From assembly GCA_037176885.1 (NCBI GenBank), contig JAWWNJ010000105.1, positions 248,001-312,000 of the forward strand: 64,000 nucleotides of DNA. Reading direction: 5' to 3'. The notes below the pieces were generated by a model that ran no database searches, had not been told where the DNA came from, and was given only the letters and a program-made list of their open reading frames with translations. Below are positions 51,542 through 57,552 of the stretch, piece by piece. A program made the position numbers and the translations under genes. The first letter of the stretch is position 1. Each line of letters starts with the position of its first letter. The stretch comes from Favolaschia claudopus (lineage: Eukaryota; Basidiomycota; Agaricomycetes; Agaricales; Mycenaceae).

Positions 51542-51881
51542 GACGGTACAGAATCAAGCCTACAGCGGAACAAGGGGGCTCTTGCTCTTAAAAGCCCAGT
51601 AGGCGCGCGCCTCGCGTCGATTAGCCAGATTTAAGTTATGACTCGGAATCCTCGTGCTGAGGCTGACTCGGAACACCGCTAAAAATTGAGAGAACAGTAA
51701 CACCCTAGAGAGTTAAATCGTAGTCGCCCAGGTATTGGCCTGCACATATCGAACCGTTGACTATTGGGGGAATTGAGCTCGCAGCAAGCAAAATGCGCGA
51801 AAAATTGGGGCGAAACAAATGGTTCGGCAACCAGCTGTAACCCTAACCCTAACAAAGTAAGCATAAACCAAGGTATCATCC
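51542..51881. promoter_or_regulatory. Upstream region of the ABC transporter with a telomere-like repeat
   Basis: About 340 bp left of the transposon. It contains TAACCCTAACCCTAAC at 51838-51853, about 2.7 units of the fungal telomere repeat, only 28 bp from the target duplication. It was originally part of a divergent promoter shared with PRP4. Confidence 0.5.
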
Positions 51882-51889
51882 GCCCACCT
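51882..51889 (+). repeat. Target-site duplication, left copy
   Basis: GCCCACCT, identical to 57545-57552 on the far side of the element. Confidence 0.9.
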
Positions 51890-51928
51890 CAAGAGGTGAG
51901 CGATCGTGGCCGATCAGACACAGGGCTC
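51890..51928 (+). repeat. Left terminal inverted repeat (bipartite)
   Basis: 16 bp (CAAGAGGTGAGCGATC), an 11-bp spacer, then 12 bp (GACACAGGGCTC). The spacer differs from that of the right end but has the same length. Confidence 0.9.
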
Positions 51929-52254
51929 TTTGACAACCCCCCCAAATTAGGCAATCCGATATGTCCGACCAACTTTTCCTTGTCCGATTCCTCGACTTTT
52001 TACTGTGACTCTAACCATTGACCGATAACCCCAATTTTTTGCGAGACCCCCCATTTGTACATATTCTGTGCACATCTACACTACTCGATTGTCTATGCTC
52101 GTTTTATGTAGCTTGAAATAGAGTTTTTCGGTCATCTTCGGCGAATCAAAGATCATCACGAGACTTCGTGGATTTTTTCCAAACGCGACTTCGACGCGAC
52201 GTCGCTGGAGTCTGTACGCGGCGGCGCGCGCGCAACCTCGCTCGTCGGTCCTCC

Positions 52255-55200
52255 ATGGAGGACTATGATTCCCAACTACACTCTTTTCGTCCCCGTTCTC
52301 AATCCCAGCCTGCGGCCCCAAGCCCTTCGAACAGCTTGTTAATTTCTTTTCACCATGAGGAAGGCAGACCCTTCGACGTCGACATGCCTCCGGCTGGCCC
52401 AGCTGCATCTGAGGGTTCTCAGCGCATAACACCTCTGCTTCCTCCTCTCGACACAAATCTACGAAATTTCAATGAGTCTCCCAGTTATCCCAGCGGTTTT
52501 GCCTCAAACGTACCGAGCCCTTCCATCCCTTCAGTATCCACGTCTCAAACCTCGACAACCTCAGCAGATGAGGGACAAAAATCTGCTCCTTCTCCTCTTC
52601 CAGTGACTCCCTCCTCCCTGGAACTGTGCGAGCTCTACGATAATAGCCAGATTTCTTCCCGCACATCGCAGGTGCAGACTTGGGAGCTGCAATGCTACAA
52701 ATGCCATAGCTGGATCAATACTGCGATATCTACGACTCGTTTTCTTGATCAGAGTGGGCAGTTTCAGACCCTTGAGCAGCATATGCGCGGAAAGAAATGT
52801 AAACCAAAATCTGGGTTCCCCGCACCTCTCTCCCGGGCTCCGTCGTTCTCTGTTAGATCTACCGGGTCGCAGGGATCACCATCGCAATTTTCTCGGTCTC
52901 CCTCTCTCGCGTCTCTTCCGCCGTTTTCACCTGCCCCATCCAGCACCAACTCCCTCTCATGGTCTCCTCTGCTTGCTTCCCCTGCCCTTCCTTTTGTGAA
53001 TGAATCACCGGATAGTTTCCGACTGTCGTACGTGGTCCTTTTAGGAATAGCTCAGTCAACAGTCACTTAATTTCATACAGACATCATCGTATTTTGTGTG
53101 CTCCCCAAACACCTGCAGCCGTGCATTCTTCCATGGAGGTGGATGAGCCTGAATTTGAATCAGCGGGTTTGTGTAGTGGGCTGAGGCTGGAGTGGCCACC
53201 AGAGCTTCCCTTTCGCTCCACTTTCCCGTTCCATCGTCTCTCGTTTCTTGGCGATGACCCAGACGAATGTGCATTGCGTTTGGAGATTGAGATTCGAGAG
53301 CGTGGAAAGGTCATTGATGTGTGGTCAAAGGAGTGCCGCAGAATCACTACGCCACATTCCCCGCACTGTCAGGCCTGCGAAGGCATTCGTGGGCGGCTTG
53401 AAGACCTTGCCAAGATCGCGCGCGACGCCAAGCCGGGTACTAACTTGAAATATCTTGGTCACGATCAACTGCGTGAACAACTCGTTGAGCGGAACGAGGA
53501 AATGAACAAGCTCAAGCTTCAGGTATTCTTCTTCTATCTCCGTCATGCTCTTGACTCATTTCTGGTATTCCAGACATTGAATCTGGGGCGGCGCCTCGCG
53601 AGCTTCGCTCGGAAATTAGATGACTTTGACCGCCTTCTTGTGGCAATAGCTGAGAACGACATCCCACGAATCCATGCCATCATTGAGACGGCACGACGCA
53701 ATGGCGCCAGTGTACGAACGATGGTCAATTTTCTGACCGAAGCCGTGGATGGACTTCGACATACGAAAGGATTCACGGCTTTTGAGAAAGACCTTGGTAT
53801 CCTGATATACCGATTAGGTGGTCGCTCTCTCCTCTATGCAATGAATCATTCCCTCAATCTCCCTTCCCTACGCACCATCTGTAACTCCGCAAAATTTGTT
53901 AAAGTGACACCCACAATTGGGCCCATCTCCGAGTACGAAATTCGACGGAATATTCAGAATGTGATGCTCGTTCCACGTAGCGAGGCGGAGGTCCCATATA
54001 CCGGTCGGCGTGGTGTCACTATCATGATGGATGAATGTGCAATCGAGGAGCAAGCATGTTACTTCTCCCATGCGAATCAAGTCGGTGGACTATGCCAGAA
54101 ACACTCCCGTGGTATTCCCTTGGATCTCAAAACCCACGATTCGGCGACTCGTCTTGTCAGCTGCCTTCATGACGGGACACTTCATTTCGGCAAGGAGATG
54201 GCATTTGTCGCAGCGCGATGCAGCGGTGAAACCACCATATACCCCCTTGTATGTGCTCCGACGTGCAAGCAGGAGACATGGGAGGATATGGCTGATCTCT
54301 TTCGCATGATACTCAAGGTTTGGAAGGAGACGGGGCAGGCAGCGATCGGAGAGATATGGAACTTCGCTACGGACGGAGATCAGCTGCGTCGTCGAGCTGG
54401 GCATGCCGTGTTTATGCAGTTTGAGCTCGGGCCAGAAGACACTCTCCATTTCACGCTGTCGAATCTTCTCGGCCTGAATCTCTTCACTGGTCCTTGCAGA
54501 ATCCTCATCACATTTGATTGGCGGCACATTATAAAGCGTACGTTGTGTTGACTCACTTCACGGATGACCCGCCTGACAAAATCGCATATAGGACATTGCA
54601 CACTGCTTCGTCATGTCTTGGGAATCGCCTTAGACAATGGCCGGGTTGTTGGTCCTGTCTCTCTGACACGGTGCCTCCTTCTTCTCCCTGATCAAGATGC
54701 TGCATCAGTAAACCTACTGCTCAACCCAGATGACCCTCAGGACGTACCGACGGCCATCGAGCTTTTGGAGACCATTGTCCAGCTTCGTCAATCTCGTGCG
54801 GAATTCGACGTGCCTGCTTCCGAGGTGAATCTCAACTCCGATCTCGATGCGATTGACCTTCTGAGCTTCATGCTCGAAGCTCTTCTCAACGCATTTACCC
54901 TCCCCTCTGCATCCCTCAGCGATCAAATATATTCCCTCAGTTTATACGCCAACATGAGCTTTGTGCTCTTCCGAACGTTCCGTCTCAAATTTATGAGCAA
55001 TCAGCTGTACGGCGACTCTCAAACAATGATAAAGAACATCGTCTTCACCGTCGCGAAGCAGCAGGAGTTGGATCCGGAGGGAAAAGTCAACGCATACCAT
55101 GACGGCACGGATCCGGTAGAGCAGCATTTCGGATACACGCGGGAGCTTGGTGGGCATAATTCCGCCATGAATTTCAAGCAGGGAGTCGAACGGACAGGCT

Positions 55201-57336
55201 GGGCTTGTGATATACAAGGTGTACACGAGCGCAATCCCGGCCTTCATCCCGGGCACCGCCGACGAAATGTCACTCGGAAGGAGATCAAAGACCACCTCAA
55301 CGAGTACAACTTCAGTGGAGATTATGTGGTTGGGCACTGTGACTTGGGTGCTTCGTGGTGGAGAGGGCGTGTAGAGGCTATGCGAATATTTCGTACGCAT
55401 TCTCACCTTGACTCCAGTGTCTTCGACATTGCAGCCATTCTGGCGTCTACGCCCGGCTTGGATTTTCTACGACCTCACGGGGGCGGTCTTTATCCTGGTA
55501 TTTCCGACGAACCAGACAGATCTCTACCTCCGGCCACGACCTCGACAACGTCTGACTCGTCTCCTGACGCCCCGTCCTCCATTGTCTCTACTATCCAATC
55601 ATCGACTCTTGTCTATCAAGACCCCGATAGGTTCGATGATTTGATTCCTGACTTGCAGACCCCTGCCCTCCCTTTCGTAGAAGATATTCAGAACGAAGAT
55701 TCGGAGCCTGTTGTGCTCAAGTTGGACCCGCGCCCCGGTGTTCGCCCCGAAGACTACCTCCTCGACGAAAACAACAAATTCGTACACAAGGCATCTATAT
55801 GCCGTCTCATTCTCAACAAAGAGTTCATCGCTAAATCGAAAAATCGCACTGAACGCGCAATGGGCATGGCAATCAAGAAAGTCCGTACTTTCACTAAACC
55901 AAACGCAACTCGGCTAGGCGGCGGTATCACCGGCTCCTCATTCATTGTCGGAGACCCATTTACGACGCTCATCCGCACATCCACCAATGTTTCCCTCGCC
56001 CTCGTTCGCTGCACGGAGATTCTTGTTGACGGCAAACGTGCTACGGACGTGAACGCGGCGTCCATCAAGAATCCAAAGGCTAATGTCAAAATGTCCGGTC
56101 AAATTCTCAAACTCAAAGCTGTTGTCCGAACACAAGACGACGTCTTCAGCGACTCATCGGAAGAGATTCCCATCGAGTCGACTTGGAGTTGGTTGTGGCT
56201 GGGGTCGTATCTGATGACCAAGAGCACAATCAAGGGAACACAGATAGCCACAGACACACCGCACATCATCTCCGTTGCAGGGCATCTTGTTGAGCCTGTC
56301 AATCCCAAAGCCGTTACCGCTCACGACCGTCTTGCTACCGAGGACATGCAACACATCAACTCCACGGGCACGACGTGGGCGATGGAGCACAATCTACTGG
56401 GAGCATTGACGGAGGAGCTATGGAAGCGCGTCGAAGCTGCACAGACGGGGTTGCGAGAGATGCCGAATATCAAGGATGAACTCGCGGGGTTTCCGTACTC
56501 GTGGGCGACAGGTCAGCTCAATCTGCCTTGCGTCGTTCTCAGATACCTCATATATATTTACAGGAATACCAGCGTTGTTATCTGACGGCGGGACTGCGTT
56601 CATCACCGCAAAATCTGCCGAGGACCCATGCCTCTACTGCTCAGAGGTGCCGTCCAATTGGCGCGGCCATATGGGAGCACATATCTTACGCAAATTGCGC
56701 AATGCTGGCGAGGTCGAACGAGAGAAGAGAGGGAAAAAAACAGGAGAAGTGAAAACATATCCCGAGGTACGTGGACGTCACTGAGCAGGCTGGTGTTCGG
56801 TGACTTATTTGTTGTAGGTCGGAGAGTCGTATCCATGCGGGTTCTGTGGTCGATCAGGTCGCCCTGAATGTGCTGTTTCGATGAAACCAAAGGGCCAGTC
56901 ATTCGAAATCATCACAAAATGCAAATATGAAGTCAAATTTCAGTATCAGACAGCGAACAAAGGTTCAGCTACGACACCGTCAAGAAACCTCCCAATTATC
57001 TGTGGTCTTTGCCCGGTCCCCCAGAGCCGATATCCCACATACCCCGCTGTATGGCGATATAACATGCCACAGCACCTACTCGACCAGCATTCCGAGTACG
57101 CCTCACCTCTGCAGCCCGAGGGCATGCTTCTACCATTCAAAGTGTGGGAGAATGTACGGATAGAGAAAGCGGAGGAGCTGGCGCTCGGTATTCCGGAGTC
57201 TTCAGTCCCACAGCCATTCAGCAAAGTCGCCCAGGTTTTAGAAGAAGATGCTAGTCGTGTGCCGAAGAGAGGCCAGAGTGGTGGCCAACGCGGGGCCGGG
57301 AAACGGGGAAGGCGGGGAGGGCCACGAGGTGGTTGA
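52255..57336 (+). CDS. Transposase-like protein with N- and C-terminal zinc-finger motifs
   Basis: Six exons (52255-53027, 53081-53522, 53574-54537, 54592-56511, 56564-56766, 56818-57336) give 1,606 residues; an in-frame Met at 52168 would add 29. After a Ser/Pro-rich start comes a Cys/His motif (LQCYKCHSWI ... HMRGKKC). The core holds VTIMMDECAIEEQACYF, GLCQKHS, VCAPTCKQETWEDM, NFATDGDQLRRRAGHAVF, FDWRHIIKRHCTLLRHVLGI and NQLYGDSQTMIKNIVFTVAKQ: candidate catalytic acids and a conserved His, in P-element/THAP9 order. The C-terminus has C2H2-like motifs (PCLYCSEVPSNWRGHMGAHI; CGFC; CGLCP ... HLLDQH) and a Gly/Arg-rich tail (GQRGAGKRGRRGG). Similar proteins are widespread in Agaricomycetes, usually unnamed. 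Catalytic assignment is inference. Confidence 0.87.
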
Positions 57337-57505
57337 GCAGTATTTGTATTGGGTGAATGAGAACAATTTACATAGAATAAGCACAGTATTGAAGCGACGA
57401 TGCGTGCTGGCACTTGTCCGCTGGCAGCGTTATCTATTGTTATCTCGCCTTATCATAACCCATCAATGACGTACCCCCCCTCCCCCCCGGGTCGCTCGAC
57501 TTTTG

Positions 57506-57544
57506 GAGCCCTGTGTCACGGACTTTTTGATCGCTCACCTCTTG
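57506..57544 (-). repeat. Right terminal inverted repeat (bipartite)
   Basis: Reverse complement of the left terminus: the same 16-bp and 12-bp blocks separated by an unrelated 11-bp spacer (AAAAAGTCCGT on this strand). Confidence 0.9.
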
Positions 57545-57552
57545 GCCCACCT
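57545..57552 (+). repeat. Target-site duplication, right copy
   Basis: GCCCACCT, identical to the left copy. Confidence 0.9.

Follow-up and report, generated by a model that had tools for sequence, protein, structure and literature searches.

We have identified a mobile element of the agaricomycete Favolaschia claudopus in a 64,000-nucleotide stretch of contig JAWWNJ010000105.1 (assembly GCA_037176885.1, positions 248,001 to 312,000, forward strand), hereafter called the window. With high confidence, we consider it a complete DNA transposon of the cut-and-paste type that has been active recently in F. claudopus and encodes a 1,606-residue transposase with a P-element-type catalytic core. The element is P-type by its core, but it is not a canonical P/THAP9 element.

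The element occupies positions 51890-57544 of the window (5,655 bp) and is flanked by a perfect 8-bp target site duplication, the direct repeat GCCCACCT, at 51882-51889 and 57545-57552. Each end comprises 39 bp, in which an outer repeat of 16 bp (51890-51905, plus strand; 57529-57544, minus strand) and an inner repeat of 12 bp (GACACAGGGCTC, positions 28-39 from the end; 51917-51928, plus strand; 57506-57517, minus strand) are perfectly inverted and are separated by an 11-nt unequal spacer. Both outer repeats are unchanged in all 13 other full-length copies. Under a simple equal-base model, the number of 16-bp inverted pairs bordered by an 8-bp direct repeat that chance would produce in the window is about 2e-6. 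Next to the left inner repeat lies a subterminal block, TTTGACA..CCCCCAAATTA (51929-51949, plus strand), which is a candidate transposase binding site.

The F. claudopus assembly (264,566,041 bases in 460 contigs) was searched for further copies. A 79-base query, consisting of the duplication and 71 bases of the left end, returned 106 candidates; among the best 40, which were scored, 20 begin exactly at the element boundary and 31 lie at most one base away from it. The best 40 of 70 candidates were scored for the right-end query. Exact matches to the bipartite end motif number 97 in the genome, as opposed to 0 for a backward-read control. All 20 loci that were extracted carry perfect 8-bp duplications; they represent 19 sites, since L018 and L021 have common flanks. 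The loci comprise thirteen full-length copies (5,655-6,246 bp) and seven short ones of 426-473 bp. Nine full-length copies are mutually 100% identical and differ from the window copy at a single base, position 53098, where the window copy encodes Cys264 and they encode Ser; the remaining four (L015, L016, L019 and L021) have further changes. Nine more short loci were found, of which six have perfect duplications for seven elements (one nested) and three do not. At L064 (C4:1725300-1726450), a short element lies within another, and both have a perfect 8-bp duplication of their own. In total, 27 sites display 27 different 8-mers with a weak palindromic leaning. The L021 locus (also L055, contig C381) shares its insertion site with L018, shows 22 small indel runs in the element, and is probably an unpolished allelic contig.

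Joined flanks were searched for empty sites in 7 of 21 cases. On contig C41, the flanks of the window site are joined by a single GCCCACCT, and the match extends to the limits of the retrieved sequence in both directions (99.1% over 3,016 bp in one flank and 96.4% over 2,997 bp in the other); this second copy of the locus presumably represents the other haplotype. The L017 site has an uninterrupted counterpart at 94% (L042), and uninterrupted copies of the repeats that harbor L019 and L013 exist. Three of the seven joined flanks had no match among the 40 scored. The genomic outcomes that a preliminary description of the locus had named as refuting were not obtained, since further copies with these termini have different 8-bp duplications and a second copy of the locus is empty. 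Ten copies, that of the window and nine identical ones, are intact, and for one of them this genome also contains the empty site, which suggests that the element may still be mobile.

Four further elements with perfect 8-bp duplications and CAAGAGG ends were found in the genome: C65 (5,869 bp), C20 (5,929 bp), C53 (5,740 bp) and C172 (3,683 bp). They show 28-58% identity to the window protein in aligned pieces. C65, C20 and C53 have a related inner motif ending at position 39, as in the window (with the last base changed at one C53 end), and retain a slightly changed version of the left subterminal block at the gene-proximal end; in C172 the inner sequence differs. Such ends were not found for 82%-identical copies or for L050-L052. 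The C65 relative (L048 1237-7807) itself lies inside a larger pair of inverted repeats (TGTTCATGGAATGAGT, 16 bp, perfect) that is flanked on either side by TAATATTA and is probably an older element of another kind.

The element contains one plus-strand gene of six exons (52255-53027, 53081-53522, 53574-54537, 54592-56511, 56564-56766 and 56818-57336, the last ending in TGA) with GT/AG introns and 1,606 codons uninterrupted by a stop. The preliminary description had therefore given the gene structure correctly, as it had the inverted termini and the perfect duplication. The product is letter-for-letter identical to the database protein P0001, a "hypothetical protein" of F. claudopus. The 56 members of the family in the database are named hypothetical or uncharacterized, and none has a precomputed Pfam domain. 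A C-x2-C...H-x5-C pattern at residues 147-182 (52693-52800) is a candidate zinc finger, possibly BED-like. In a strict form, written after inspection of the data, this pattern occurs in 14 of the 22 members whose core is preceded by 300 residues or more, and in a looser form in 18. Toward the C-terminus are a beta domain (residues 1173-1342; 55929-56438) that is possibly, on weak grounds, BAH-like, and three Cys/His clusters in conserved alignment columns, C1389-H1406, C1441-C1469 and C1496-H1525 (56629-57090), which are candidate zinc fingers.

The signature string of the P superfamily is D, D, [C/D](2)H, E in the accessible part of its description (PMC8230255), and the window protein contains it in a form that is nearly invariant among the 56 members. 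The first catalytic Asp, D558 (54030-54032), aligns with D230 of the Drosophila transposase and is D in all 55 members that have a residue in this column; the second, D672 (54372-54374), aligns with D303 and is D in 52 of 53. D720-x2-H723 (54516-54527) follows strand 5 and aligns with D339 and H342 (D in 50 and H in 51 of 52). These three features are encoded by exon 3, and the catalytic Glu, E903 (55119-55121), which aligns with fly E531 and is E in 55 of 56 members, is encoded by exon 4 together with the helical insertion and the C-terminal beta domain. The motifs listed in the preliminary description included the two Asp residues and D-x2-H and omitted the Glu. In a fold search, which that description had also proposed, the best match of the core was the P element transposase (over chain 155-565 of 6p5a), which scored about 8 Z units higher than Transib; Transib transposase and RAG1 ranked next. 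The RNase H fold is split by a mostly helical insertion between strand 5 and helix 4 in the predicted model and secondary structure. The fold and the catalytic residues are thus computational predictions, from which we infer catalysis itself. An 8-bp target site duplication is also characteristic of the P superfamily.

Several observations weigh against this assignment. At an E value of 10, Pfam gives no P-type match for the window protein, and the 15 places that PF21787 matches in its own genome at an E value of 1 do not include the window gene. Among 31 members, PF21787 was matched in three (best 0.19) and PF21789 in one (0.018). Wherever shown, the P-type matches of relatives, including P0056, P0060 and three frames of the same genome, fall below the curated cut-off, which for the TNP-like Pfam families is a detection rule and not a biological feature. 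Unrelated families outscore P in single members (SCRL, 0.00022; DUF7830, 0.00066; ABM-like, 0.0069). A single fly sequence against the family profile gives a probability of just 4%, so the P link requires structure or profiles on both sides, and the structure model is that of a relative lacking the first ~425 residues. The alternative to a transposon would be a host gene between chance repeats or one multiplied by segmental duplication, and one copy pair (L018 and L021) does have common flanks. Such an explanation is nevertheless extremely improbable given the 27 distinct duplications, the exact empty sites and the termini common to four other families. Segmental duplication of the identical copies is disfavored because their flanks and duplications differ, and the empty site with its one GCCCACCT tells against this explanation as a whole.

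The window protein shares with the Drosophila P transposase (PDB 6p5a, 6pe2) the D, D, E residues of the RNase H core, the 8-bp duplications, the D-x2-H..K after strand 5, the mostly helical insertion before the last catalytic helix, and E-x2-F-x3-R-x2-GG. It differs in length (1,606 residues compared to 751 in the fly), in the part that follows the core (~550 residues with the beta domain and three Cys/His clusters compared to ~180), and in its bipartite 39-bp ends, where the fly P element has a 31-bp repeat with inner 11-bp repeats according to the available text of PMC7776569. The THAP C2CH zinc finger pattern was found in none of the 22 long N-termini, and the THAP family was found neither in the window protein (Pfam, E value of 10) nor among 25 of 27 families shown for 31 members. 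The simple THAP pattern is a weak separator, however, because, although it matched the fly protein, it recovered no more than 23 of the 120 P relatives.

The GTP-contact residues of the fly transposase are K385, K400, V401, S409, F443, D444, N447 and D528, as listed in the consulted part of PMC7776569. In the members (n=54-56), the V401 column is kept (V in 53), as is D528 (D in 55), and K385 is K/R in 34 of 54. The K400 column holds D in 45 of 55, S is not among the commonest residues of the S409 column (E 21, Q 15 of 54), the F443 column holds F in 10 and L in 26 of 54, the D444 column E in 28 and D in 2 of 54, and fly N447 was left unaligned with the family. FD-x2-N is found in 1 of 56 members compared to 95 of 106 P relatives. 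The family therefore does not have the canonical P/THAP9 GTP-contact set, a difference softened by the variability of K400 in P relatives (K in 62 of 106) and by the conservative change of D444 to E. Of the P/THAP9 assignment made in the preliminary description, the P-type core was borne out by the fold search; the label P/THAP9 is too narrow, because the THAP pattern, S409 and FD-x2-N are absent from the window protein. It could be hypothesized that a mushroom lineage keeps the P core and insertion fold, works without GTP, has replaced THAP by other Cys/His fingers, and may steer integration by a BAH-like chromatin-reading domain. We regard this as an unlikely possibility, the more so as K400 varies in P relatives and the D444 change is conservative.

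The family might instead form a superfamily of its own that descends from the same ancestor as P, RAG/Transib and hAT and for which the name P would be inappropriate. The missing THAP pattern, the rarity of FD-x2-N, the long C-terminal part, and an identity of 16% in a profile alignment that is significant only with profiles on both sides fit this proposal; the retained signature with its helical insertion and the lead of P over Transib in the fold search speak against it, and we consider it rather improbable. An origin as a KDZ (Kyakuja-Dileera-Zisupton) element is very improbable. Large fungal transposases and 8-bp duplications would fit, the latter being reported for Zisupton elements in the available text of PMC12730594, and KDZ elements are frequent in mushrooms, with at least 202 domain matches in this genome. 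Yet a search of the window protein at an E value of 10 gave no KDZ match (PF18758), the 25 families shown (of 27) for 31 members do not include KDZ, and a partial list of KDZ places lacks the window gene. Both the fold search and the profile alignment with P place the family with P. The hAT elements also have 8-bp duplications and ends beginning with CA. Both features occur here, along with a C-x2-C...H...C finger pattern, and P and hAT transposases form one group in a 2014 classification, as far as its accessible text goes (PMC3985635). We regard a hAT identity as highly improbable.

For the P-type transposon that we favor, we propose that the transposase would bind the bipartite ends, namely the outer 16 bp and the inner 12 bp, perhaps with the left subterminal block in addition; the Cys/His clusters near its N- and C-terminus would be the probable contacts. 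Excision would fall to the RNase H core (D558, D672 and E903) and the mostly helical insertion domain, which would also join the 3' ends of the element to the two strands of a new site with a stagger of 8 bp, and gap repair would produce the 8-bp duplication. The short elements with the same ends may be mobilized in trans.

The first P elements known from any Dikarya were described in 2011 from rust fungi, according to the consulted part of PMC3164196. These elements (Repbase P-1_PSt, P-1_MLP and P-2_MLP) represent the P superfamily in Basidiomycota with 8-bp duplications in the Melampsora copies, and are likened to ours by description only. No P-element report for Agaricomycetes was found in the open literature examined, which did not cover Repbase or a 2017 survey. 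In their available text, two mushroom genome papers name KDZ, Plavaka and others, but not P (PMC8290104, PMC7473861), and the term "P element" is missing from the text available for PMC12730594, a 2025 study of fungal transposons with TET/JBP genes. Our finding suggests that a group of large mushroom proteins, annotated in databases as hypothetical or uncharacterized, function in mobile elements. Among transposases and integrases, the P transposase is said to be the only one that binds GTP as a cofactor (PMC7776569, accessible part), and a relative with the P fold but an altered pocket would offer an experimental route to asking how GTP dependence arose. If still able to move, the element could become a tool in mushrooms.

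A more distant P-like family with a 697-residue frame (PF21787, E value of 0.0061) is present as near-identical frames at four places (L031-L034; C201, C52 and two places on C145), for which element ends were looked for and not found. At the window locus, CCCTAA telomere-like repeats (51840-51856) lie ~35 bp left of the insertion and are present in the empty site as well. The ATG of an Arg/Asp/Glu-rich reading frame (57660 onward) is located ~110 bp downstream of the element end, so the insertion may lie in a promoter or leader.
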